64,000 bases of DNA from contig QQVO01000020.1 in assembly GCA_003388505.1 (NCBI GenBank), positions 1-64,000 on the forward strand. Direction: 5' to 3'. The DNA is from Planctomycetota bacterium. GTDB taxonomy: Bacteria > Planctomycetota > Planctomycetia > Planctomycetales > Planctomycetaceae. Both the position numbers and the translations under genes were made by a program. Below the pieces are notes generated by a model. That model searched no databases and had not been told where the DNA came from. It saw only the letters and a program-made list of their open reading frames with translations. This document shows positions 2,172 to 14,540 of the stretch, piece after piece. Numbering within the stretch: position 1 is the first letter of the stretch; each line of letters starts with the position of its first letter.

Positions 2172-2960
2172 TTACCGCTGCTTGCTCTCGCGCAGCAACT
2201 CGTCACACCACTCGACGTGCTCGTCCCGAAGAGCGGGCGGCGGAGCCGGGTCGCCGTAGTTGAGCGTCAGGTCGTAGCCGGCGTTCTCGTACGCAGTGTT
2301 CAGTATCTGCTGGAGATCCAGAGCGGCGTCTGGATCAGTCTCAGCCAGCGGAACCGGTACGACCGGCAGCGGCTGAGGCAGACGAATCGGCCAGACCGTT
2401 CCCTGCGGCCGATCCTCGACGCGCGACACGTGCACCAGGTATTCACAGGCCGGAAGTCCCCCCTCGACCATCATCCGCTCGCCTCCACGAAGGAGATCAA
2501 TCTCGACCAGGTGCGTGGAGGACGTTAGAACGTCCCGCCGTTTGCGCGAGTAACTCTCGCGGCCGCGCGAGCCGGGAACCTTGTTGGCGGGGCTCAAGAC
2601 CTCAATGATCGCCAGGACGCGGCCGGCGCGGGGGTCGACGATCTCGAGTCGTGCTTCGCGAATCTCTTCCTCCACCATCGTCGTGACGACGATCGGTTCG
2701 ACCGTCGCGATGGAGGTGGAATCGGCAGGCGGTTGCGAAGTCCTTACTCCATGGGCGATCCGCAGGTCGGGGACGATCACCCGCCGCCCCGGATCATTCT
2801 CGTCCGAGACGTACACCCGCTCCTCGATGCGTACGACGTATCGCGGCCGCAGCAGTTCGTTCAGCCGCCCACGCATGACGGACATCAGTTCGTGATGCAC
2901 GTCGGGCCAGATCGACGGCGCTTCGAGGTACGGGTCCATTCCCGGAAACGGGGACGGCAT
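2172..2960 (-). CDS. DUF4058 family protein
   Basis: A 262-residue protein beginning MPSPFPGMDPYLE, the diagnostic opening of DUF4058, followed by WPDVHHELM, RPRYVVRIEERVYV and a core with IEVLSPANKVPGSRGRESY resembling the Uma2/PD-(D/E)xK nuclease-like fold. The start at 2960 is chosen because family members begin with exactly this motif; the open frame continues 66 codons upstream without family similarity. DUF4058 is common and multicopy in planctomycetes and cyanobacteria; its function is not established, although the ExxSPxNK core invites comparison with PD-(D/E)xK enzymes. It is flanked on both sides by a 31-bp identical direct repeat, which suggests gain or movement as a cassette. Confidence 0.88.
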   Translation of the reverse strand: MPSPFPGMDPYLEAPSIWPDVHHELMSVMRGRLNELLRPRYVVRIEERVYVSDENDPGRRVIVPDLRIAHGVRTSQPPADSTSIATVEPIVVTTMVEEEIREARLEIVDPRAGRVLAIIEVLSPANKVPGSRGRESYSRKRRDVLTSSTHLVEIDLLRGGERMMVEGGLPACEYLVHVSRVEDRPQGTVWPIRLPQPLPVVPVPLAETDPDAALDLQQILNTAYENAGYDLTLNYGDPAPPPALRDEHVEWCDELLRESKQR

Positions 2961-3029
2961 GGGCTGACTCCGGGACCGAATTGCAACACGTCCTTTGTAC
3001 CGCACAGCCGCCGGGGCGGGCAACTTGAT

Positions 3030-3060
3030 CGGCGAGCGGCGCGGCGTCAGCCCGCCGATC
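3030..3060. repeat. 31-bp direct repeat, copy 2
   Basis: Identical to 2136-2166 and in the same orientation. It lies in the 131-bp gap between the DUF4058 start and the aminotransferase stop. The sequence outside each copy differs, so the identity is confined to the 31 bases. Confidence 0.85.
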
Positions 3061-3091
3061 CGTTCCATCAGCATAGAGAAAGACGAACGGT

Positions 3092-4264
3092 TCAAACGCC
3101 ATTCGCTGCAGCCACCCCCGCTCCCGGCGTGACATCCGCTCCCTGCGATTTCAGGCACGCCTCCAGCGCAGCAAGAAACAGCAGCACGTTCCGCCGCGCG
3201 CTGGTTTCGCCCATCAGCCCGATCCGCCAGGTCTTGCCCGCCATCGGTCCCAGGCCGCCACCGATTTCAATGCCGAATTCGCGCAGCAGTTGGGAACGGA
3301 CCCCCTTGTCGTCGACCCCCTCCGGAATCTTGACGGCGTTGAGCATCGGCAACCGGTGTTCTTCCGCCACCGCGAACTCCACCCCCAGCGCCTCCAAGCC
3401 CGCGCGGAGCATCAAGTGGTTGGCGCGGTGCCGCGCATGACGTGCTTCGAGTCCCTCTTCGAGCACGATCCGCAGCGATTCGTGCAGCGCATAGTTCATG
3501 TTGATCGGAGCCGTGTGGTGATACGCCCGTGACTGGTCGCTCCAGTAGTTGGAGACCATCTGCATGTCGAGATACCAGCTCGCAATCTTCGACTTGCGGT
3601 TCTGAATGATTTCCAGCGCCCGCGGACTGAACGTCACCGGTGCCAGCCCCGGCGGACACGAGAGACACTTCTGCGTTCCGGAATACGCGGCGTCGATCCC
3701 CCAGGCGTCGATTTCAACAGGAATGCCGCCCAGCGACGTCACGCAATCCACGAGCAACAGCGCACCGGCGTCATGGATGATTTGCGAAATCTCTTCCAGC
3801 GGCTGACGCGCTCCGGTGGATGTCTCGGCATGCACGATGCCCACGACCTTCGGCTGCGCGCTCTTCACCGCGTCGGCAATCTCGTGCAGCGTGAAGACTT
3901 CACCGAAAGGCCGTTCGATCGTCGTCACCTCGGCTTGAGCGCGGCCGGCGACGTCGGCCATCCGCTTGCCGAACACACCGTTGATGCAGACCAGCATCCG
4001 ATCGCCCGGCTCGATGAGATTGACGACACAGGCTTCCATTCCCGAACTGCCCGTTCCACTGACGGCGAGCGTGAGTTTGTTCTCCGTTCGGAACGCCTGC
4101 CGCAGCATTGTCTGCGTTTCGTCCATGATCCGCAGAAAGTAGGGATCAAGATGGCCGACCGTCGGCGCGCCGAGCGCGGCAAGGACGCGCGGCGAAATAT
4201 CGCTCGGACCGGGTCCCATCAGGATGCGGCGGGGAGGAGTGACGGGTGGCGGGATGTTGCTCAT
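3092..4264 (-). CDS. Class V aminotransferase, alanine/serine-glyoxylate type
   Basis: A 390-residue PLP enzyme of the AGXT family, which transfers the amino group of alanine or serine to glyoxylate. It opens with [14 protein letters not shown] and GHLDPYF, typical of the family. [11 protein letters not shown] is the phosphate-binding region, [11 protein letters not shown] carries the PLP-contacting Asp, and [12 protein letters not shown] holds the Schiff-base Lys199. Length matches the family. It is transcribed toward DUF4058 with 131 bp between them. It could equally be annotated purine catabolism PucG-like or phosphonopyruvate-related; the substrate choice cannot be settled from sequence. 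It is probably cytoplasmic, in C2 metabolism. Confidence 0.9.
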
Positions 4265-4442: not shown

Positions 4443-5015
4443 TCACCGGCCCGTGACGAGGCGGCTGATCTGCTTGAATTCGTACGTCCCGGCGACTTCG
4501 CACCATTCGAACAGGATTGCTTCGGTGGTCGTAATCGTCGCGCCCGAGTCGCGCAGCCGCTGCAGTGCGAAGTCTTTGTCGACTGGTTTCTGGCTCGCCA
4601 GTGCATCGGCCGGGAGATAGACCTGATAGCCGGCCGCCATCAGATCGAGCGCCGTCTGCAGGATGCAGACATGCGTCTCGATGCCGGCGACAACGACCTT
4701 GAATCGCTCATCCTGTTCAGCGGCGGTCCAGCCGACGCACTCCGCGCTGCTGAAGCGGAGCTTCTCCGGGATGTCTTCGAAGAACGACGCCAGTGCGGGC
4801 ACGGTGCGGCCAAGCCCCTTGGGATACTGTTCGGTCGCTGCGGCCGGAATCCCGAGGATTCGGGCGCCCGCCAGCAGCTTCCGGCAGTTCTCGATCATCG
4901 ACTCGGCGTCTGGAATGACTGGAACGAAGATCTCCTGCACGTCGACGATCAGCAGTCTGCTGTCGTCGCGGCTGAGGAGTTCGCGGCTGCGGAGGTAATC
5001 GGTTTCGCCGGACAT
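4443..5015 (-). CDS. Isochorismatase-family (cysteine) hydrolase
   Basis: A 190-residue protein with the full isochorismatase/nicotinamidase-like fold. Catalytic triad candidates are Asp25 in LLIVDVQ, Lys85 in PEKLRFS and nucleophile Cys117 in GIETHVCILQ. The segment EQYPKGLGRT after strand 2 resembles the YcaC / ISOC1 subgroup rather than true nicotinamidases, which have metal-binding histidines I do not see here. The substrate is unknown: a small amide or vinyl-ether compound hydrolysed in the cytoplasm is likely. The gene is transcribed alone toward the palindromic region at 4265-4442. Confidence 0.88.
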   Translation of the reverse strand: MSGETDYLRSRELLSRDDSRLLIVDVQEIFVPVIPDAESMIENCRKLLAGARILGIPAAATEQYPKGLGRTVPALASFFEDIPEKLRFSSAECVGWTAAEQDERFKVVVAGIETHVCILQTALDLMAAGYQVYLPADALASQKPVDKDFALQRLRDSGATITTTEAILFEWCEVAGTYEFKQISRLVTGR

Positions 5016-5103
5016 AGTGCGATGCTACGGCTGACCGAACTGGTTTGCAATTGACGCCGGGCCGTTCGCGTGGTCGCAGCGCCGTGCTACGATGCGAGAC
5101 AAC

Positions 5104-5178
5104 GTAGCGCACGCAGCCTTGCGTGCGTCCCGTTGACCGCAGAGGTGGGTGGCGCACGCTAGCAGCGTGCGCTACGGG
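5104..5178. repeat. Double-hairpin palindromic repeat related to the left part of the MITE family
   Basis: Two adjacent hairpins, CGCACGCA-GCCT-TGCGTGCG (5108-5127) and GCGCACGCT-AGC-AGCGTGCGC (5152-5172), give a near-palindrome of about 75 bp that starts GTAGCGCACGC and ends GCGTGCGCTAC. Its left part, including the following CGTTGAC, matches the internal hairpin of the 160-bp elements at 6733, 11526 and 13691, but the CCCGGATTATTC ends are absent. It lies in the promoter-side gap of the gene at 5233. Confidence 0.65.
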
Positions 5179-5232
5179 CCAACGCAGGAATTTGCGTAGG
5201 ACAACAAGATTCTGCACGTTAGTAGTACAAGG

Positions 5233-6732
5233 ATGAAGGGCGTCAGGTTTTCTGGTGAGGCGATTGAGCGAATGAACTTTGTGGTCGTCGCCGGCAATCG
5301 CGACTGCCGGCCTCTGCTGGCTGCGATCGCGGAGTCGAAGGAGCACCGTCTGCTTGCAGCAGCGTGCGATGCAGTCCTTCGTGCGGACTTCGCAACTCTG
5401 GCCGAAGAGGTTTATCCGAGTAGCGATTGGCAGCGATTGTTGACCGCGCCCGGCCTGGAGGCCGCGATCGTCTGCGGCCACGACAAAGTCGTCCAGGACG
5501 CTGCCTGGCAATTCGCCGCCGCGGGACTGCATCTGGTCGTCTACCCCGACGCATTGCAAACGGCGAGCTTCGCGTACCGGTTGTGGCCGACGGCCATTGA
5601 CGGCGCTAACGTCTTGATGCCGGTTTTCTCGCATCGTCTCCACCCCCAGTGGCGCGAGTTGCGAGACAGCCTGCAACGCGGCGATCTGGGACGGATCCGT
5701 TTTCTGGAAATCTCGCGAAGTGAACCGGCGGGCGCGTCCGGCCTCGTCGACGAGCAGACGCTGAACCGGACACTCCTGCTGGACTGCGATTTGCTCCGCT
5801 GGCTGTGCGGCGACTACACGCGAGTCACCTGTCTGCAGACAGGCCGGAGTGACGGCGGACTGGCGTCACAGAGCGTGACGCTGGCCGGGGAGGGTTGCCC
5901 GGAAGCGAACTGGCACGCGAAGGCGTCCGGCGGAGAATCGCAGTGGCGGCTGACGATCTCCGGCGATGCGAAGACGGAAATCTATACGTCCGAAGCGGGT
6001 TTCGCGGACGCTGCCGGCGATGTGACCACGATACGATCGGCGGAGCACGATTCCGGTGCCGCGATTCTCACGGAGTTTGAGCGGCGGTTGGAGGGCAACG
6101 ACGGCGGCCATTCCTGGAGCGAACTCGTTCGCGACTTCGACGTGCTGGACGCCGCACAGCGGTCCATCCGGCGGCGGCGTACGGTCGAAGTCGGGTCTGA
6201 TGAGTTCTCCGAGCGCAGCCAGTTCAAGTCGACGATGAGCGCGGCAGGTTGCGGCGTCTTGCTCTACACAATGTTTGCACTCGTGTTCGCGCTCCTCGCC
6301 GGCGCGCTCCTCGATCCACGCGATGCAGCGCAGAAGCGCTCGCAGTCGGCAGGCTTCGTGCTGAGAGCGGAAGACTTCGTGGGAGAATCGGCGGAGCTGT
6401 CCCCTTCCGGGGAAGCGCACGTGGACGATATCCGGAATCGCTTGTGGCAGACGACGGCCGAAGTCATGATCGATCCGGCCGGCATGACCCCGGCAGCCGC
6501 TGACCGGCGGCGCGCAACTGTCGCCGGTCGACTCTCAACTCCGGCGGACCCGATCGACGACAACCGCGTCGTCGTCCGCGACATCCAGGGACAGTGGTTT
6601 CAGCGAGGCATGCTGATCGCCTGGATTCTGGTTTTCCTGCCGGGCGGCCTGATTCTCTTGCTGCAGGGACTCCTGCTCGTGACGCGCCCCGCAGGCACGA
6701 CCGGCGGCCCGCCGCACTCTACCGACCGATAG
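5233..6732 (+). CDS. Gfo/Idh/MocA-like N-terminal domain protein with C-terminal membrane anchor
   Basis: A 499-residue protein. From residue 14 (MNFVVVAGNRDCRPLL) to about 230 it resembles the Rossmann and substrate domains of Gfo/Idh/MocA oxidoreductases, but the GxGxxG nucleotide loop is not intact and the EKP motif is replaced by VYPDAL, so catalysis is doubtful. Two hydrophobic segments near residues 341-361 (GVLLYTMFALVFALLAGALL) and 460-485 (MLIAWILVFLPGGLILLLQG) make it a membrane protein, enclosing a roughly 100-residue soluble domain. The start could instead be 5272, which puts the beta-strand at the terminus. Its TAG stop lies within the 4-bp target duplication of the MITE that follows directly. 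Function unknown; perhaps a sensor or a degenerate dehydrogenase. Confidence 0.75.
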   Translation: MKGVRFSGEAIERMNFVVVAGNRDCRPLLAAIAESKEHRLLAAACDAVLRADFATLAEEVYPSSDWQRLLTAPGLEAAIVCGHDKVVQDAAWQFAAAGLHLVVYPDALQTASFAYRLWPTAIDGANVLMPVFSHRLHPQWRELRDSLQRGDLGRIRFLEISRSEPAGASGLVDEQTLNRTLLLDCDLLRWLCGDYTRVTCLQTGRSDGGLASQSVTLAGEGCPEANWHAKASGGESQWRLTISGDAKTEIYTSEAGFADAAGDVTTIRSAEHDSGAAILTEFERRLEGNDGGHSWSELVRDFDVLDAAQRSIRRRRTVEVGSDEFSERSQFKSTMSAAGCGVLLYTMFALVFALLAGALLDPRDAAQKRSQSAGFVLRAEDFVGESAELSPSGEAHVDDIRNRLWQTTAEVMIDPAGMTPAAADRRRATVAGRLSTPADPIDDNRVVVRDIQGQWFQRGMLIAWILVFLPGGLILLLQGLLLVTRPAGTTGGPPHSTDR

Positions 6733-6892
6733 CCCGGATCATTCGTAGCGCACGCTGCCAGCGTGCGTCACCGTTGACGTGACATCGGGGTGCAATCCGT
6801 TCGAAGAGTGCGGCGCTCTGGGCAACTTCTCAATATCCTGCTGTTTGGCAACCACTTATAGTGGACCGGACCCTTGTCATGAATAATCCGGG
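6733..6892 (+). mobile_element. MITE-like element, copy A (160 bp)
   Basis: A non-coding element of 160 bp. It begins CCCGGATCATTCGTAGCG, ends with the inverse of CCCGGATTATTCATGAC (11 of 12 terminal bases match), and is flanked by ATAG at 6729-6732 and 6893-6896. An internal hairpin GCGCACGCT-GCC-AGCGTGCG lies near the left end. It is similar throughout its length to copies B (11526) and C (13691). No ORF inside has coding character, so it would need a transposase in trans. Confidence 0.88.
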
Positions 6893-6898
6893 ATAGCG

Positions 6899-7432
6899 CT
6901 ACTGACCGAAAGACGGTCCGTTGAGATATTGTTTCAGCGCCTGTGTCTGGCGCGAGGCGGCATCCGGCCCGCCGTTCTCTCGTTGTGGCTGCACCCAACC
7001 GGTTGGTGTCGCACTCGTGGGCGGTGCATAGCTGGTTGGTGGCGGGAACGTCGCCGGAGGTGAGTATCCGGACGGCGGCGCATATTGCGGCGTCATGTCG
7101 AACTGCGTCGGCTGTGAGAGATCGGTGCTGTTTTCGTAGCGGTGCCAGAACTGTTGCGAGTACGCCATGGTGTTCGGCATGCCCCATCCGGCTGCGGTCT
7201 GCGTCTGTGCGTAAACCGCCTTGTAGTTGTACGGCAGAAACGAATGCAGCCCTTCATAGTAGGGCATCTGGTGGAGGTACCCGTGTTTCCACGGTTCACG
7301 ATCGTCGTACTGGAAGAGCGGTTCGGCACTCCCGATCGACGGCGCCCCGTACCCGTAGTAGTACGGATCCTGTGAAAGGGCGGACGCCGCGAGCGAACTC
7401 CACACAGCGACGAGACAGATTGAACGGACCAT
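6899..7432 (-). CDS. Exported Tyr/Pro-rich hypothetical protein
   Basis: A 177-residue protein with signal peptide MVRSICLVAVWSSLAASALS, then a tyrosine-rich mature part (DPYYYGYGAPSIGS) and a conserved-looking core WKHGYLHQMPYYEGLHSFLP followed by NYKAVYAQTQTAAGWGMP and SQQFWHRYE. Residues about 115-150 are a low-complexity Pro/Ser/Tyr tail. I recognise the core as a type common in planctomycete secretomes but with no known function. Its stop codon lies 6 bp beyond MITE copy A, so the element separates it from the convergent 5233 gene. An envelope or extracellular location is likely. Confidence 0.8.
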   Translation of the reverse strand: MVRSICLVAVWSSLAASALSQDPYYYGYGAPSIGSAEPLFQYDDREPWKHGYLHQMPYYEGLHSFLPYNYKAVYAQTQTAAGWGMPNTMAYSQQFWHRYENSTDLSQPTQFDMTPQYAPPSGYSPPATFPPPTSYAPPTSATPTGWVQPQRENGGPDAASRQTQALKQYLNGPSFGQ

Positions 7433-7761
7433 GCGTTCGCTCCCTGAATGAATTGGCGAGGACGGACGCGATTCTGCGATCCGCCTTCGATGGCGATCTG
7501 AGTCTTCACCCGGCGGCGCAGGCCGTTCCGCACGTGCGCCGCGCTTGCCCGGTATCGTGGTAAATCGGACGGATCGTCAAAATCCTCAAGTCGATCTGCG
7601 TCGGCAAAACCGTCACGGTCGCGTCTCGCTCCAACGCCGACGGCAAAGTTTGCGCCGCTTGCCGGAATCACGCTTTCGTTCGGTACACAGGTGTGACTAG
7701 CGTCGAGGATGCCGCTTCATTCCGGCGGCCGACTGAACTTGTCTCGTTGGGGAGCTGACTG
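7433..7761. other. Divergent intergenic region, no gene seen
   Basis: 329 bp between the divergently transcribed 6899 and 7762 genes. It must hold both promoters, but I cannot pick out a convincing -35/-10 pair. Short open frames across it are arginine-rich reading-frame shadows. A GGGGAG element at 7751-7756 precedes the ATG at 7762 and can serve as its ribosome-binding site. Confidence 0.6.
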
Positions 7762-8205
7762 ATGACGCACAGATTGATGAATTGCCTGCTGGCCGCCGGC
7801 GGCCTTGTTTTCGCTTTCGGGATCGACGCAACGGCGCAGGACGTGATCCTCTCCGCACCGCCGGCCGACGCGACCGATTCTCCGCCGGATGCGATCGTGC
7901 CACCGCCCAAACTGGTTCCTTCACCCGTGTTGCCCCCCGCACCAGGCCCCGCGACGCCCCTGCCGAAAACCGACGCTCCCGAAGTGATCCGCGAACCATT
8001 CGTGCCGAGGGAGCAGATCGTCCGGCCCGCGCCCGTCACCGTAGCCCCCTACTATGTCCCGAATCAGCGGCATATCCGGTATCTGCCGGAGTCGGTCGTC
8101 CCGGGAACGACCGGCGGCTTACACCTCCGCTACCCGTACTACAGTTATCGGCGTCCCTGGTATCGTCCCGGGCCGGCCAGCGTGAACGTCACGATTATCT
8201 GGTAG
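7762..8205 (+). CDS. Exported proline-rich hypothetical protein
   Basis: A 147-residue protein with signal peptide MTHRLMNCLLAAGGLVFAFG ending at about ATAQ. The mature part is very proline-rich (PPPKLVPSPVLPPAPGP) through residue about 90, then has an aromatic/basic tail with LHLRYPYYSYRRPWYRPGP and a hydrophobic end VNVTIIW. The start is supported by GGGGAG spaced five bases upstream. No enzyme motif is visible. It sits between another Tyr/Pro-rich secreted protein and the secretin gene, suggesting an envelope or matrix role (inference). Confidence 0.78.
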   Translation: MTHRLMNCLLAAGGLVFAFGIDATAQDVILSAPPADATDSPPDAIVPPPKLVPSPVLPPAPGPATPLPKTDAPEVIREPFVPREQIVRPAPVTVAPYYVPNQRHIRYLPESVVPGTTGGLHLRYPYYSYRRPWYRPGPASVNVTIIW

Positions 8206-8672
8206 GCCGTTCATCTCGCGGGGGAAGCGTCGAACGGCCCGGCCGCGTGCAGCGAGTCCGGGTCGTTGTTTGCTGCGCAAGGGTCGCGACCCGTGCTGCT
8301 GCGAACTGAGAGATTGGCGCCGGCCGAACGCCGCGAAAAAACCGTTGTGACACGCGCATCAGTCACTTCTGGCAGAACTCGTTCAATTCCTCCGGTCCGC
8401 ATAACCGATACTGTGAGTGCAGTCATCTTCGCCGACGGCTCCGCGCTGCGTGCGTTCAGAGTCTGACGGGCGATTCAGGGGGAGTCTCGCGACATCAAGG
8501 GGGCGGGCGGTCGTCGATCAAAGGCGGCGCGCCGGCTTCGCGCGCCAGGGGGAAGGAATCTCGCATGCACTCGCCAGCCGCTGCCGTATCTCAGGGAATC
8601 ATCCGCCTCCGCGGCTTGATCCGACGAGACAGTCAGCCCAAACACCGACGGCCGATGAGAGGACAGACAACG
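8206..8672. other. Intergenic region, no gene recognised
   Basis: 467 bp without a credible gene between the proline-rich protein and the secretin. Small frames here are arginine-rich shadows with no recognisable motif. A GAGAGGA at 8657-8663 is the ribosome-binding site that fixes the secretin start at 8673. No T-tailed hairpin is evident behind the 8205 stop. Confidence 0.55.
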
Positions 8673-10529
8673 ATGCGAGTTCCAGTACGGATCGGTATCA
8701 CTCTGGCGGCCGCCTTACTGAGTGCAGGCGGGTCGACACAGGCGCAGACGCCCCCGCCCTACCCGGCCGCGCCGGTCGTGCAGGCGTATCAGGCCGGAAC
8801 GCCGGAGGCGGGACAGGTCGTTCCGGTTCAATACAGCGACGCCGTCGAGAAGCCGCTCGACGCCAGTATCGCGGCGATGCCGGAAAACACCGAAGAGCTG
8901 GAGGTGATCCATCACCGCAGCCAGTTGATGCTGATGAAGGACCCGGTGTGGCGGATCTCGGTCACCGATCCCGCCGTGATTGAAGTGGTTCAATACAGCC
9001 CGACCGAGATCGCCGTGCTGGGCCTGGGAGTCGGCACGACCGATCTGTGGATCTGGTTCGAAGGCCGCGACGACCCGCTGATGTACCTGGTGAACGTCAT
9101 CCGCGATCCGAGTCTCGACAACCAGCGCCGCCTCGATCTCGGCAAACTCGAGCGGAAGCTCCAGGTGCTCTATCCCAACAGCAAGGTCTACCTGATCCCG
9201 CTGTCGCGAAAAATCATCGTGCGGGGTCAGGCCCGAGACGCGGAGGAAGCCGCGCAGATCATGGAGATCGTTCGCGACGAGGCGATCAACACCGACGGCG
9301 ACCTGTTCGGTCTGGGCGGCGGGACGGACGACTACGGCCAGTTGTTCACCAACGATGATTTTCTGTCGTCGTTCATCGTCAATGAACTGCAGGTTCCCGG
9401 CGAGTTCCAGGTCATGATGCACGTCCGCATTGCCGAGCTGAATCGCTCGCAATCGCGTCAATACGGCCTCGACTGGGACTATCTGTTCAACAACGGCCGG
9501 CACCGCATCACGCAAACGTTCGCCGCCGCAAATCCGCTGCTGACCGGCATCTTCGAAAACGGAGAAATCGCCGTCGCCATCGACGCTCTCGCCTCGAACG
9601 GTACGGCCAAGATCATCTCAGATGCGACTCTGGTCACGCTCAGCGGGGAACCGGCCGCGTTTCTCGCGGGAGGCGAATTCGCCGTCCCCACCGCAGTGGG
9701 TTTGAATGGTTTGGGCGTCGGGACCACCACCTTCCGAGGATTCGGAACGTCCATCATCGCCACGCCGACCGTTGTGGATCACGACCTGATCCGGCTCCAG
9801 ATCATCCCCGAACTGAGCGACATCGACCAGGGCAACGCCGTCGGCGGCGTGCCGGGCGTCAACGTCAAACGGGTGCAGACCCGCGTGGAACTCCGCGAGG
9901 GACAGACGATCGTACTGGGCGGCATGTTCTCACGGCGGCAGCAGGCCGAAGTGACCCGCATTCCCTGGCTGGGAGAACTCCCGGTCGTCGGCACGTACCT
10001 CTTCAACGCCAAGAACGCCACGGAAGACGAGAACGAACTGCTGATTCTCGTCACTCCGGAGATTGTCCGGCCGATGGACTCCGAAGAGGTGCCTCCCATG
10101 CCGGGCTGGTACGTCACTCATCCGGACGACTTCGACCTGTGCAAGTTCAACCGCACGGAAGGCAACCCGGACCTCGGGCACTACCAGTTGCTGCCTTACG
10201 GCAACGGCCAGGGCTACGGACAGGATGCCGGCTTCAGCATCTACAACGGAGCGCCGGGGCAGATGGTTCAGCCCGCCTACGGGATGAATCAGTATCCGTC
10301 GACGCCGCAATCGCCGATCTATTCGCCGCAGGCGCCGATGCACTCGCCTCAGCCGCCGCAACCGGCGCCGCCGGCAACGACCTATCCGCCGCACACCTCG
10401 CCGATGCCTTCGCCGGGGCCTGCCGTTCCGCAGGCCGGGCGAATGCCGGGCGGGGGCGGCATCCAGCAAACGTCGGCGGAGCAGCCGGAAGAGAAACCGT
10501 CGATGATCCGGCGTTTGTTCCGCCGCTGA
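8673..10529 (+). CDS. cpaC: CpaC/RcpA-type secretin (type II/III secretion system family, Tad pilus)
   Basis: A 618-residue outer-membrane secretin. The start at 8673 follows GAGAGGA at 8657-8663 and gives signal peptide MRVPVRIGITLAAALLSAGG; an upstream in-frame ATG at 8565 would bury the signal. Residues about 60-150 match the pilus-assembly N-terminal domain (SQLMLMKDPVWRISVTDP), followed by a BON-like domain (RKLQVLYPNSKVYLIPLSRKI, split here as K-rich strand-turn). The secretin core runs from about 220 to 475, with the hallmark VKRVQTRVELREGQTIVLGG. A C-terminal tail of about 110 residues is rich in Pro/Tyr/Gln and ends MIRRLFRR. The CpaC type forms the outer-membrane pore for Tad/Flp pili; the tad ATPase and platform genes are not in this window. 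Confidence 0.88.
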   Translation: MRVPVRIGITLAAALLSAGGSTQAQTPPPYPAAPVVQAYQAGTPEAGQVVPVQYSDAVEKPLDASIAAMPENTEELEVIHHRSQLMLMKDPVWRISVTDPAVIEVVQYSPTEIAVLGLGVGTTDLWIWFEGRDDPLMYLVNVIRDPSLDNQRRLDLGKLERKLQVLYPNSKVYLIPLSRKIIVRGQARDAEEAAQIMEIVRDEAINTDGDLFGLGGGTDDYGQLFTNDDFLSSFIVNELQVPGEFQVMMHVRIAELNRSQSRQYGLDWDYLFNNGRHRITQTFAAANPLLTGIFENGEIAVAIDALASNGTAKIISDATLVTLSGEPAAFLAGGEFAVPTAVGLNGLGVGTTTFRGFGTSIIATPTVVDHDLIRLQIIPELSDIDQGNAVGGVPGVNVKRVQTRVELREGQTIVLGGMFSRRQQAEVTRIPWLGELPVVGTYLFNAKNATEDENELLILVTPEIVRPMDSEEVPPMPGWYVTHPDDFDLCKFNRTEGNPDLGHYQLLPYGNGQGYGQDAGFSIYNGAPGQMVQPAYGMNQYPSTPQSPIYSPQAPMHSPQPPQPAPPATTYPPHTSPMPSPGPAVPQAGRMPGGGGIQQTSAEQPEEKPSMIRRLFRR

Positions 10530-10729
10530 GAAATGATCGGGCAGCACACGGATTGAGAACGGCTGAACACAGTCTTCAGCCGATACGAATCGGGGGACCG
10601 GGGGGACGCCCCGCGACGGAACCGGCAGAGTTTCTCTGACCGTCAAACTCGCGGCGAGACACGAATCTGAGTTCAAAACTCCACCGGCACACAGCCGGAT
10701 CAAACGGAATGACTTGGGGGGGACGGAGC

Positions 10730-11431
10730 ATGAACGGCAATTGGCGAGCGCTCGGGACGACGGCGCTGATGCTGGCTTTGATCACAACGGCCGGATGCGC
10801 GCACCATCGCTGGTCGCCGCTCGGGCACTGCGGATCCGACGACTGCGAATGCGAGTCAGAGTGCGAGTCGGACGGTTGCGAGCCCGGGTGCGGCGGCGGT
10901 TGTTGTCACGGCATGTACTGCATGGGGCTCGGCTGTTGCCACCGCCGCTCCAACGCGATCCCGGAAACGCTCCCCCTCGGGAGCACCGTTCGCACGCATT
11001 ACCAGTTGATGGAAACCAACGGCGAGGCGGCGGACTTCATCGTCTATCGCCACAACTTCATCGGACAGACCGCCGAACTGACGCCCGACGGAAAGGACCA
11101 CATTCTAGAGATCGCGGCCCGCATGCCGAGCACGCCCTTTCCGGTTCTCGTGGAGCGTTCCGAGAACAACGCCGATCCCGAACTCGACGCGCATCGCCGC
11201 AATCTGATCGCGCAGATCCTCACCGACCTCGGCAACCACGACGCCCAGCAGAGGACGATTGTGTCGACCAGTTACGGACCGGGCTACAACGCGATCCAAG
11301 CGGTCCCGATGTACTACCGCCATGTGGGCACAGGCGGCTTCGGCAATAACTTCGGAACGTTCGGCAACAACCTCGGAACATTCGGAGGCTTCGGCGGCGG
11401 CGCCGGTGGAGGGCTCGGTTTCGGACCGTAA
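10730..11431 (+). CDS. Cysteine-rich lipoprotein with an OmpA-like C-terminal region
   Basis: A 233-residue lipoprotein. The start at 10730 follows GGGGGGACGGAG and yields signal MNGNWRALGTTALMLALITT with lipobox TAGC, so Cys23 would be lipidated; an upstream ATG at 10709 is less likely. Residues about 38-75 hold more than ten cysteines (DDCECESECESDGCEPGCGG and CCHGMYCMG), suggesting a disulfide knot or metal site. Residues about 95-180 (DFIVYRHNFIGQTAELTPDG, then HRRNLIAQILTDLG) resemble a degenerate OmpA/peptidoglycan-binding domain. The tail is a Gly/Phe/Asn repeat (FGNNFGTFGNNLGTFGG). It lies 200 bp after the secretin, so it may be a pilotin-like or pilus envelope partner (inference). 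Confidence 0.8.
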   Translation: MNGNWRALGTTALMLALITTAGCAHHRWSPLGHCGSDDCECESECESDGCEPGCGGGCCHGMYCMGLGCCHRRSNAIPETLPLGSTVRTHYQLMETNGEAADFIVYRHNFIGQTAELTPDGKDHILEIAARMPSTPFPVLVERSENNADPELDAHRRNLIAQILTDLGNHDAQQRTIVSTSYGPGYNAIQAVPMYYRHVGTGGFGNNFGTFGNNLGTFGGFGGGAGGGLGFGP

Positions 11432-11466
11432 CCTCGAACAGGCGCCTCAACCGAAGGATCGACCCG

Positions 11467-11493
11467 CCCGGCCGCTTTGCGGCCGGGTTTTCT
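11467..11493 (+). terminator. Intrinsic terminator after the Cys-rich lipoprotein gene
   Basis: A perfect 9-bp GC stem, CCCGGCCGC (11467-11475) and GCGGCCGGG (11479-11487), with loop TTT, is followed directly by TTTTCT. It lies 36 bp behind the stop at 11431, the expected place for a Rho-independent terminator of the secretin/lipoprotein unit. Confidence 0.9.
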
Positions 11494-11525
11494 ATTGCGC
11501 CGGCGCCGCCAGTCGTTTCCGTTCG

Positions 11526-11685
11526 CCCGGATTCTTCGTAGCGCACGCTGCCAGCGTGCGTCGCCTGGGACGTGGCGTCGGCGTTTAATCCCTTCCAAGT
11601 GCGGTGCGCCTTGGGCAACTCACTGATAACCTGATGTTCGGCAAGAGCTTACACAGAACCGGGCCCTCGTCAGGAATAATCCAGG
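11526..11685 (+). mobile_element. MITE-like element, copy B (160 bp)
   Basis: Same family and orientation as copies A and C. It starts CCCGGATTCTTCGTAGCG and ends with the inverse of CCTGGATTATTCCTGAC, with one mismatch from the shared end in each terminus. It is flanked by perfect TTCG at 11522-11525 and 11686-11689. It is the most diverged copy internally, so probably the oldest insertion. It lies between the terminator at 11467-11493 and the convergent gene ending at 11758. Confidence 0.87.
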
Positions 11686-11757
11686 TTCGCGCTCGTCGTC
11701 CGCCTGTCCGAACGAATCGACCGTTGCCCGCGCCGGAATTCGGCGGCTGAGAGGCCG

Positions 11758-13410
11758 TCAACGAATGAGCAGGCCGATCGTTTCGGTTGCCGTCTTCCCG
11801 CTCAATTCGTCCTCGACGATCAGCACGAGGGTGTGCGGCCCGGGGCTCAGGTGTTGTGGCAAGTCGATCTTGTAGCTGTGGAAGTAGTCGTTCCGGACGC
11901 TGCGGCAGAGATCTTCCGTGGCCGGGAACGTGTTCTCGTCGACGACTTCTCCGTCGGCGCCGCCGCGACGAAGCTCGATGCGAGACCTCAGCCGGGTCGT
12001 GTAGGAGCCTGCGTTCGTCGGCTCACTCCGGAAGTTGCGCAGCTCCGCGTACAGCAACACCGGCTGTCCGGGGCGAAACTCGTCGCGTTCGTACCGTTCG
12101 TAGTTGCCGAAGCTGTTGATCTTGTAACAGAAACTCGTATTGAGCAGTTCCAGGGGCGCCTGCCGCTGCAGCCTGCGTTTGGCCGCATCGAGTTGGACGA
12201 CCGTGAGGGCCGCGCGGTCCGCCGGGTCGGGAAGGTGTCGCGCGTCGAAGTAGTTCGAGATGGCCCAGAACAACTCGGTCCAGAACTCCTGTTCCGACGG
12301 ATCAATGCCTGGAATCGCCTGCTGCGCGAGTTGGGGTTGCTCGGCCATCAGGTGCAGCATGCGGAGCCAGACATGGTGCTTGACGTAGGCCAGCCGCTCC
12401 TGATCGGTCATGCCGGGCTGCGCGGCGCCGACTTCCGCTTCAATCAGCGCGGTCAACCGTTCCAGTTCTTCCTGCCAGTAGGCGCCCTGCGGCCCTGCAG
12501 AGAGGGGCGTGTTCGGCAGGGAAGAGGGCTGCCCGGGGCCGTCCGTCGGCGGCAGATCGTATTCAATCCGGCTCGCAGCGCGGCCGCGGGGCGGTTCGAC
12601 GGCCGCCGAATCTCCCGGAGAAATCGACGGCAATTCATAACTCGACGACCGCGCGGAGTAGCCGGAGGACTCGGGAGACGCCGGCGATTCCTGATAAGCC
12701 AATCGAGCGTCGCGCCGCGGATGGACGTCGAAGGGCGAGATGCCGTTCCCTCCCGATCCGTTGTCGAGCGGATCGGGCGCATGCAGGCGGGAATCGCCGC
12801 CGCGTTCGAATTGCCCGTCGGGCGGACGCGAGGAATGTTCAGAACGGAAACTCGACGGAGCAACGTGCGCCGTCGAAGCGTTCATCGAAGACATGCTGCC
12901 ATTCGCTGCAACCGCCGCCGGTCTCTCGTATTCGTGCCCCGCATCAAACTCGGCGTCCCGCGGCGGAACGGCCTCCCGATCGGCTCCGATCGCTGGCTGG
13001 CTCGCGTGCAGCCGGCGCGATTGCAGCACGTAGGGAATCGAGTCGGGGTCAATCGATGTGAGGTACTCCATCCATCGTCGGCGTTGATCGTCGGGGAGAT
13101 CGCGGAGTTCCATTTCGATCAACGTCAGCGTTTCGGAGTCCAGCGAGCGAGCGGCCGCGGGCGGAGTCGGCGCGGCGGAAGCCGGTCCGGCCAAGTGAAG
13201 CGGACTCTGTTGCTCAACTTCCCGGCCACGCTCCGGTTCGGCTGTCTCGTCCGGTTCGTCCGTGAGGCGATCAAGGAGCGATGTCGTCCGGCGGGAAGCT
13301 GTCTCGCTCCGCGCGAGTGGTCGGTCCACAGAGGATGACATGGTCGTGCAGCCGGCAGCGCCGGTCAGCAGGCACACGCCGAGCCCGGCGAGAAGCGAAC
13401 GGGACATCAT
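11758..13410 (-). CDS. Large lipoprotein with disordered linker and conserved C-terminal domain, function unknown
   Basis: A 550-residue lipoprotein. The start at 13410 (double ATG, 13407 possible) follows AAGGA with good spacing and gives MMSRSLLAGLGVCLLTGAAG plus lipobox Cys21; the open frame extends 46 codons further upstream without sense. Residues about 30-320 are Pro/Ser/Arg-rich and probably disordered, apart from a helical patch TLTLIEMELRDLPDDQRRRW. Residues about 340-445 are helical (WQEELERLTALIEAEVG and YVKHHVWLRMLHLMA). The last 110 residues look like an Ig-like beta domain (GQPVLLYAELRNFRSEP, then LSPGPHTLVLIVEDELSGKT). I do not recognise a named family. It is probably anchored in the outer membrane or periplasm. 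Confidence 0.78.
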   Translation of the reverse strand: MMSRSLLAGLGVCLLTGAAGCTTMSSSVDRPLARSETASRRTTSLLDRLTDEPDETAEPERGREVEQQSPLHLAGPASAAPTPPAAARSLDSETLTLIEMELRDLPDDQRRRWMEYLTSIDPDSIPYVLQSRRLHASQPAIGADREAVPPRDAEFDAGHEYERPAAVAANGSMSSMNASTAHVAPSSFRSEHSSRPPDGQFERGGDSRLHAPDPLDNGSGGNGISPFDVHPRRDARLAYQESPASPESSGYSARSSSYELPSISPGDSAAVEPPRGRAASRIEYDLPPTDGPGQPSSLPNTPLSAGPQGAYWQEELERLTALIEAEVGAAQPGMTDQERLAYVKHHVWLRMLHLMAEQPQLAQQAIPGIDPSEQEFWTELFWAISNYFDARHLPDPADRAALTVVQLDAAKRRLQRQAPLELLNTSFCYKINSFGNYERYERDEFRPGQPVLLYAELRNFRSEPTNAGSYTTRLRSRIELRRGGADGEVVDENTFPATEDLCRSVRNDYFHSYKIDLPQHLSPGPHTLVLIVEDELSGKTATETIGLLIR

Positions 13411-13690
13411 AGGGGCATCCTTGCGCAACGGAATAAAGTTGCGGTCGCTCGTGAGGAACGCGAGGTGAGTGAGTCCCGGGCCAATCCAGCCCGGGGGAAG
13501 TGGGGAAGAGAGGGGCGGGAAGGATACAGCAAGCCCCCCGTGAGCCACAAGACGGGGTTCGACGCCGACCAGGGCGATCGGACCTTACGAGCGGAGCCAG
13601 CCTCGGGAGGGCGAAGCTCCTGTTGAGCCGCGCAGCAAGTTGAACTCTGAAAAGATGTTACGTCTGGAGATCACCCTCTGGTGACGTTAG

Positions 13691-13849
13691 TCCGGATTAT
13701 TCGTAGCGCACGCTGCCAGCGTGCGCCACCGTTGAATTGGCGTCGGCGTGCAATCCGTTCGAAAATCGCGGCACTTTGGGCAACCTTTCGATAACCTGAT
13801 ATTTTGCAAAACGTATACAGAACCGGCCCCTTGTCATGAATAATCCGGG
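13691..13849 (+). mobile_element. MITE-like element, copy C (159 bp)
   Basis: Third copy, same orientation. It starts TCCGGATTATTCGTAGCG, ends with the inverse of CCCGGATTATTCATGAC, and is flanked by perfect TTAG at 13687-13690 and 13850-13853. It is nearest to copy A across its right third. The rest of the 490-bp gap between the genes at 13410 and 13901 (13411-13690 and 13850-13900) holds no gene that I can support. Frames crossing the element read RIIHDKGPV in both A and C, an artefact of the shared DNA end. Confidence 0.88.
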
Positions 13850-13900
13850 TTAGGGTTCCGTTGAGTAGAGCCCTGCAGAGCCCTCGCGTGACTGTATCTT

Positions 13901-14371
13901 TCAAGCATCCGACCGCAGCTTTTGCAGCAAGTCGGCGTTTTGCTCCAGGAATTGTTCTCGCCAGAAATAGCCGTCGAGGAGGCCGGCTGGGTCGCGGCCC
14001 ATCTGCACGTACGCGGCGAAAATCGCCTCGATCGTCGCCAGCCCACCAGCCGGGTCGGTAAAAAGCTTGGAGTCCCGCGGATACGCTGTCTGCCATTCGT
14101 GGAGACTGTACACCGGAAGGTCGTCAAACTGCGGCTGCATTTTGCCGGCCAATCTCCAGGTTCCATCAAGCACCAGCAAGCCTCGTCCCCGCTCTTCTGG
14201 TGAGAGAGGGGGGCCTCCCAGCCCCAGTCTGAGGTATCCGTCCAGCGGCTCGGGACCGGTGCGGGGAAACTTCCAGAAGACAAAGCCGGGGCGCTCCCGC
14301 AAAGCTTCCACCGTACACTTGCTGCGGCGTTCCCGGGGATGCACCACGATGACGGTCGGTGGATCAACCAT
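13901..14371 (-). CDS. Tsr3/DTW-like putative aminocarboxypropyltransferase
   Basis: A 156-residue protein. The core matches the Tsr3/DTW superfamily of SAM-dependent 3-amino-3-carboxypropyl transferases that modify rRNA or tRNA. Features are [32 protein letters not shown] with Asp69-Gly-Thr-Trp72 as the D-x-T/S-W signature, [17 protein letters not shown], and a Tsr3-like C-terminus [14 protein letters not shown]. The start at 14371 is chosen because its ATG overlaps the stop of the upstream 58-codon gene (ATGGTTGA), a classic coupling arrangement; a longer frame from 14443 only re-reads that small gene. Substrate assignment (rRNA versus tRNA) is uncertain; N-terminal cysteines typical of DTW are mostly missing. 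Confidence 0.72.
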
Positions 14372-14540
14372 CCTGGATCGCTTTGATCTCCGTCTGGAGG
14401 CGGTCGATCTCCGATTCCAGTCGCGGCACTTCGCCCGGGTCATCCGGTTGCTTGCGGGCGCCGGCGAGTTGCTGCTGCAGCGAGTTCAGCTTCTTCCGGG
14501 CAGCTTCGATTTGTTTCTTCTGCTTCTTGTTCAGTCCCAT
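14364..14540 (-). CDS. 58-residue coiled-coil protein, coupled to the Tsr3/DTW-like gene
   Basis: A small gene, ATG at 14540 to TGA at 14364-14366. It begins [18 protein letters not shown], continues with [17 protein letters not shown], and ends with a second heptad-like helix ([19 protein letters not shown]) before DG. Lys/Gln/Leu heptads over nearly its whole length indicate a helical hairpin or coiled coil with a basic N-terminus. The stop overlaps the start of the downstream gene by eight bases, so both are translated from one message. The basic helix could bind RNA and deliver substrate to the transferase (inference). No ribosome-binding site is obvious before 14540. Confidence 0.7.

Follow-up and report, generated by a model that had tools for sequence, protein, structure and literature searches.

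The window analysed here is a stretch of 64,000 nucleotides from a Planctomycetota bacterium (assembly GCA_003388505.1, contig QQVO01000020.1, positions 1 to 64,000), contig 28 of a genome of 6.78 Mb in 78 contigs. Three short repeats, referred to as E1, E2 and E3, lie in it between predicted open reading frames (ORFs), and each carries near its left end a hairpin of the repetitive extragenic palindrome (REP) type. A first-pass annotation, made from the letters of the window, had described these repeats as miniature inverted-repeat transposable elements (MITEs) of 160, 160 and 159 bp, set in the same orientation and bracketed by the exact 4-bp duplications ATAG, TTCG and TTAG. The coordinates, lengths, common orientation and duplications were all reproduced (Table 1). 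The similarity claimed for the whole length also held: the alignment of E1–E3 spans the entire element, with a mean column identity of 84% over 200 columns (40 of them flanking bases), which contradicts the opposite outcome of a match stopping short of the ends. Compared with a young copy used as query, E1, E2 and E3 showed identities of 90%, 83% and 88%, and they carry 13, 27 and 15 body mismatches, respectively, against the family consensus. The terminal inverted repeats that had been described are present but imperfect, because all three are old copies: E1 starts with CCCGGATCATTC and E3 with TCCGGATTATTC, while E2 has CCCGGATTCTTC and, at its end, GAATAATCCAGG. At 160 bp the element is too short to code for a transposase.

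Table 1. Features of the three MITE copies and of the free-standing REP pair in the window.
Feature	Positions	Strand	Remarks
E1, IS1380-type MITE with REP, 160 bp	6733..6892	+	
E1 left target duplication, ATAG	6729..6732		TAG doubles as the stop codon of ORF 5233-6732
E1 right target duplication, ATAG	6893..6896		
E1 REP module	6745..6767	+	GTAG + 8-bp stem with GCC loop
E2, 160 bp	11526..11685	+	Most diverged of the three window copies
E2 left target duplication, TTCG	11522..11525		
E2 right target duplication, TTCG	11686..11689		
E2 REP module	11538..11560	+	Exact consensus despite 27 body mismatches
E3, 159 bp	13691..13849	+	
E3 left target duplication, TTAG	13687..13690		
E3 right target duplication, TTAG	13850..13853		
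E3 REP module	13703..13725	+	Exact consensus
Inverted REP pair (REPIN), free-standing, same REP family, outside MITEs	5104..5175	-	Extended-unit homology ~5099-5207

When E1 was used as query against its own genome, 41 matches were obtained from the best 40 of 183 candidates, 40 of them of element length and one a 27-base fragment. E2 and E3 were not among these matches; collation added further stretches, and the genome-wide search that the first-pass annotation had proposed ended with at least 46 near-full-length copies. Copies at least 94% identical to the query copy were classed as young (21 of the 46) and the other 25 as old. The young copies differ from one another at a median of 4 of 160 bases. 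Exact 4-bp duplications flank 30 of the 46 copies (17/21 young, 13/25 old), compared with a chance expectation of 0.23 of 46 at ~63% G+C, and the number rises to 37 when up to one mismatch is accepted. The commonest among the 30 exact duplications are TTAG (10), ATAG (5) and CTAA (3), and 23 of them have a central TA.

Empty sites were found at paralogous positions in the same genome. The insertion at L022 is matched by the empty locus L109, 90.7% identical over 150 bp and with one CCAG. For the insertion at L012, L094 and L098 are empty and have one ATAG, and L020 has ATAT. The insertion at L018, flanked by TTAG, corresponds to several empty loci with TTAC or another variant. Two insertions are thus matched by sites with the exact single 4-mer and a third by sites with a one-base variant. 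The repeats are short, have inverted ends, lack a transposase gene, occur in many copies, make target duplications and have empty counterparts; this is a true MITE family, and its young copies are nearly identical. The first-pass annotation had proposed that a non-autonomous element had transposed independently, and the many copies, the site-specific duplications and the paralogous empty sites support this.

The copies in the window might alternatively be fixed, conserved intergenic features with a regulatory or RNA role. Their location between predicted ORFs would suit this, as would the conserved REP part and the RNA fold of a young copy, which is better than that of shuffled sequences (z -3.1). 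We consider this extremely improbable. Among 169 further genomes from the same taxonomic family, none gave an element-length match (best 4 candidates per genome); eight short matches of 25–36 bases were seen in 6 genomes, seven of these matches over the REP and one over element positions 32–63. Moreover, no Rfam match was found in positions 5000–14500, young copies are almost identical at unrelated sites, and the empty paralogous sites contradict a fixed feature.

The ends of the MITE are shared with an insertion sequence (IS) of the same genome. Three contig ends (C19, C23 and C24) stop 127 bases into one identical IS left end, CCCGGATTATTCATCA..., which begins with CCCGGATTATTCATCAGC and is preceded at the three contig ends by CTAA, TTAG and TTAA. 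The first 127 bases of contig 1 (C1) belong to a right end, CCCGGATTATTCATCACG when read inward, and TTAG comes next. Apart from these three contig ends the 127-bp left end was not seen in the assembly, and among the best 40 of 68 candidates the right end had no occurrence besides the one that opens contig 1. Since identical ends stand at contig edges, the IS was probably collapsed by the assembler. The right end of the MITE, CCCGGATTATTCATGA read inward, shares 15 of 16 bases with the IS left end, and the left end of the MITE diverges from it after base 12, where the REP starts.

Ends matching the 127-bp left end were found in 6 of the 169 other genomes, and YTAR precedes 9 of 10 such left ends. 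In four of these genomes IS1380 frames lie behind similar ends. The frames at L131 (E 1.9e-82), L133 (E 1.9e-89) and L132 (E 1e-57) match the IS1380 model NF033539 above its curated cut-off; that at L129 is broken and falls below it (E 6e-49). A complete relative is available at L173, where an IS copy with both ends (at 1186 and 2877) encloses a frame of 492 codons. IS1380 members make target duplications of 4–5 bp. The 12–13 terminal bases are common to the MITE, to the IS ends of its own genome and to the ends before IS1380 frames in the four other genomes (one with one change). It is therefore very probable that the MITE family is moved in trans by a DDE transposase of the IS1380 family, with a left end that is a composite with a REP hairpin. 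IS1380 had been named among the candidate drivers in the first-pass annotation, and it is the family to which the element ends point.

The driver could instead belong to another DDE family that uses 4-bp targets (IS701 or ISH3, for example), the likeness of the ends to IS1380 then being coincidental. Because the assembly lacks the interior of the own-genome IS, the transposase of this IS is unseen, which leaves room for such a driver. It is nevertheless very unlikely, as the end in genome G067 that is 77% identical to the 127-bp end over 124 bp (E 2e-17) runs into a broken IS1380 frame, and the ends at L131, L132 and L133, in three further genomes, precede IS1380 frames with the first 13 bases identical (L132, L133) or altered once (L131).

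Several observations weigh against movement by an IS1380 transposase. A protein search of the assembled genome gave no intact IS1380 transposase gene, and only a 77-residue stretch with two stops was recovered with an IS1380 transposase as query. The flanks of the complete relative at L173 are TTAG and CTAG and match at 3 of 4 bases. The remaining two end-bearing genomes have no identified frame; the contigs of G079 break off shortly past the end, and the end at L130 of G068 is decayed and lacks YTAR. Within the MITE family itself, the flanking 4-mers differ at two or more bases in 9 of the 46 copies.

The driver in the own genome has to be deduced from the 127-bp ends, because the interior of the IS is not in the assembly. 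The search for an autonomous element suggested by the first-pass annotation was thus successful in part: an IS with the same ends is present at contig edges, and what lies between them is absent from the assembly. As an autonomous copy within the assembly, only the transposase fragment and these ends could be put forward, and this candidate was dropped. A transposase of the IS256 family beside an IS1380-like end (L091) was also set aside as the driver, as it belongs to another family. There (L091:2524-4032), the IS256-family frame (2643-3959, -) adjoins the IS1380-like end at a contig edge, perhaps as an IS within an IS.

The hairpin at the left end has the form GTAG-CGCACGCT-GCC-AGCGTGCG, with four unpaired bases and an 8-bp stem, and its folding energy as DNA is -10.3 kcal/mol. 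It is joined directly to the 12-bp terminal repeat. The first-pass annotation had seen in it a possible functional fold; the 8-bp-stem hairpin stood, but the annotation had overlooked that this REP is common to a separate, dispersed family. Genome-wide, the REP has 90 exact copies, 40 within the 46 collated elements and 50 outside, many of the latter in inverted pairs. At up to two mismatches there are 160 matches, some of which are one hairpin counted on both strands. The surroundings of forty further REP-bearing stretches were examined, with 13 exact REP matches left out, and 32 inverted pairs (REPINs) of 71–72 bp were identified; the 160-bp MITE itself has one REP only. A tag beside a short hairpin, high copy number and inverted pairs are the features of a GTAG REP, and all are seen here. 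It may be noted that one REPIN of the window lies near E1, between ORFs 4443-5015 (-) and 5233-6732 (+).

Sixteen of the 32 pairs lie within near end-to-end matches to a unit of ~157 bp (53 + 72 + 32); in the L095 element these matches take in at least positions 231-383. This unit is found inside two long elements with decayed IS1380-type ends, at L095 (2742-3169, 428 bp) and L045, and is missing from their relatives at L085 (1842-2126, 285 bp) and L088 (2492-2759, 268 bp). It follows a YGTG motif that is retained in the empty copy L085. The REP-pair unit thus seems to have inserted separately from the MITE, at a specific target and without duplication.

Ten Y1-family matches, three of them strong, were found in the genome. 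The MITE could accordingly be a REP or REPIN product moved by a Y1 transposase of the HUH, REP-associated tyrosine transposase (RAYT) type, its terminal and 4-bp repeats being features of the target. The GTAG-tagged REP at the left end and the many REP pairs agree with this. IS200/IS605-type transposition makes no target duplication, and the 30 of 46 copies with exact, differing 4-bp duplications and with inverted ends at both sides are at odds with it. In addition, the same ends bound an IS in the own genome, and no REP (at up to 5 mismatches) was found within ~1.5 kb of the ten Y1 matches, except the one inside a MITE copy next to L039. No RAYT partner was therefore found at this range. We regard a Y1-driven origin as highly unlikely, slightly more so than another DDE driver.

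We compared the conservation of the REP with that of the body of the element. In 44 of the 46 copies, the rate of mismatch to the consensus was 1.0% for the REP, compared with 9.0% for the body. The 46-copy set had partly been picked by the REP, and a search with the body only was used to remove this bias; it provided 40 copies (the best 40 of 82 candidates) and misses copies decayed everywhere. Copies with at least 10 body changes were taken as old in this set (18 of 40). In these 18 copies the mismatch was 1.2% in the REP vs 14.2% in the body, and the REP was perfect in 15. The best-conserved 23-base stretch to the right of the REP had 22 changes, compared with 5 in the REP. When private changes were counted, 5 fell in the REP vs 67 in the body; of these 72, ~12 would be expected in the REP (p = 0.012).

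Most of this conservation lies in shared differences, and the deficit of private changes is milder; much of the REP conservation could thus reflect source lineages and not selection per copy. The signal consists of a strong difference between old lineages plus a milder per-copy deficit. As sources of the conservation we considered constraint on source copies, conversion and host selection, any of which may contribute.

Mosaic copies, joined at the REP, were also encountered. L054, L063 and L080 consist of the first 36–38 MITE bases (terminal repeat and REP), a whole REP pair and the right end of a long MITE. In L075 the terminal repeat adjoins the other member of a REP pair, and in L056 and L065 the match to the MITE ends no more than a few bases past the REP. 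The flanking 4-mers of the chimeras L054, L063 and L080 match in 0/3 cases, giving no sign of movement as units; recombination or conversion in the REP fits better. The MITE and REP systems have merged and appear to be trading parts.

A further reading, which we offer tentatively and hold somewhat less probable than its negation, is that IS1380-driven MITEs have taken up REPs as a functional part of their ends. A DDE transposase would then spread REPs, and MITEs and REPINs would exchange ends through the REP that they have in common. The REP would stay almost unchanged owing to its usefulness, whether in transposition, where it would act as a subterminal hairpin, or for the host, where it would form a 3'-end stem-loop downstream of genes.

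In 15 of the 46 copies, E1 (6729-6732) and 14 others, the stop of an open frame falls within the target duplication. After a filter on codon composition 14 copies remained, 11 with the left and 3 with the right duplication: 10 left and 2 right among the old copies (12/25) vs 1 and 1 among the young (2/21; p = 0.009). Control YTAR sites also had such stops (10/55). Read with the REP at the left, the 30 duplications include 15 TTAG/ATAG vs 3 CTAA/CTAT, an excess that alone favours left-side TAG stops. The overlap was therefore dropped as evidence for selection, the control rate not being clearly exceeded, the test having been chosen post hoc and the duplications being biased.

Related elements were sought elsewhere. 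An exact match to the 35-base sequence of terminal repeat and REP was not found in the collection of named genomes, from which the own genome may be missing. The pattern YTAR + terminal repeat + GTAG gave one match, at L140 in the metagenome-assembled genome of an uncultured Planctomyces. At L140:3151-3334 (-) there is an element of ~171 bp with both IS1380-type ends, CTAG duplications and an GTAGGGTGGGTG inverted pair just inside. It occurs at four places in its genome, two of them near full length; TTAG and ATAG border the second. L140 was downgraded as a second REP composite: a 19-base form of the motif occurs there only in MITE copies (3 matches, up to 2 mismatches), and GTAG after the terminal repeat was imposed by the search pattern. 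In our own genome, L083-L100 hold several longer repeats with the same ends and CACCACGGAGACACGGAG-type subterminal sequences, which make up a further MITE-like group.

IS1380-family ISs (NF033539, PF13701) have the terminal 12–13 bases and YTAR-like flanks in common with the MITE, which makes 4-bp duplications. Unlike these ISs, and unlike MITEs derived from IS ends, the element is a non-coding 160 bp with a REP hairpin as its left subterminal region. ISPme1 and ISEcp1 form 'transposable modules', in which IS1380 members take along neighbouring DNA of varying extent when terminal structures are misrecognised (PMC9330008). Such end misrecognition is, by analogy, a plausible route for REP capture; the modules hold an IS and neighbouring genes (PMC9330008), whereas the unit in the window is 160 bp, non-coding and has both ends. 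MITEPye1 of Paracoccus yeei is likewise short, with terminal and direct repeats, and is attributed to IS ends acted on in trans, but it is linked to IS1182, has 1–3 copies per chromosome, and a REP goes unmentioned in the available text (PMC11578231). No described IS1380 MITE was found in the available literature on IS1380 and MITEs (PMC11578231, PMC4133298, PMC10813416, PMC9208149, PMC9330008, PMC10272864); PMC3542288 describes MITEs, none of them seen described there as an IS1380 MITE, though the families of its MITEs were not established.

GTAG repeats occur in the Planctomycetes-Verrucomicrobia-Chlamydiae (PVC) superphylum (PMC3733652), and REPINs have been proposed as building blocks of more complex repeats (PMC3116915). 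The GTAG tag, the short G+C-rich hairpin, the high copy number and the inverted pairs of GTAG REPs and REPINs are also seen here (PMC3733652, PMC3116915). Unlike RAYT-linked REPs, one REP is here an integral part of a DDE-type MITE's end, with no REP-flanked Y1 gene found in the genome. The nearest published parallel that we found is Anabaena variabilis, where GTAG-15 dimers lie inside long palindromes and REPs thus stand regularly within another inverted sequence (PMC3733652). There, whole pairs are involved instead of a single REP joined to a terminal repeat, and the available text names neither a transposase family nor a target duplication (PMC3733652). We found no description of a REP fused to an IS1380-type MITE end in the available literature. 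Elements of this kind are known; what is unusual is the REP-DDE composite, together with the mosaics centred on the REP.

The composite left end holds a complete GTAG-tagged REP hairpin directly inside the 12-bp terminal repeat. In the mechanism that we propose, the transposase would recognise ends of the CCCGGATTATTC form, insert at 4-bp targets related to YTAR/NTAG and duplicate those 4 bp. The IS of the own genome would encode a working IS1380 transposase that moves the MITE. Mosaics may arise via recombination or conversion in the common REP, and the REP may be kept because mobile source copies need it, or be restored by conversion among the many REPs.

An IS1380-linked MITE family is thus added. 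In most cases REPs are linked with transposition of the single-strand type (HUH, RAYT), and here a REP forms part of the end of an element whose structure indicates DDE-type movement with target duplication. The composite end would offer a second route for the spread of REPs, and it is a natural setting in which to ask how REPs stay conserved.

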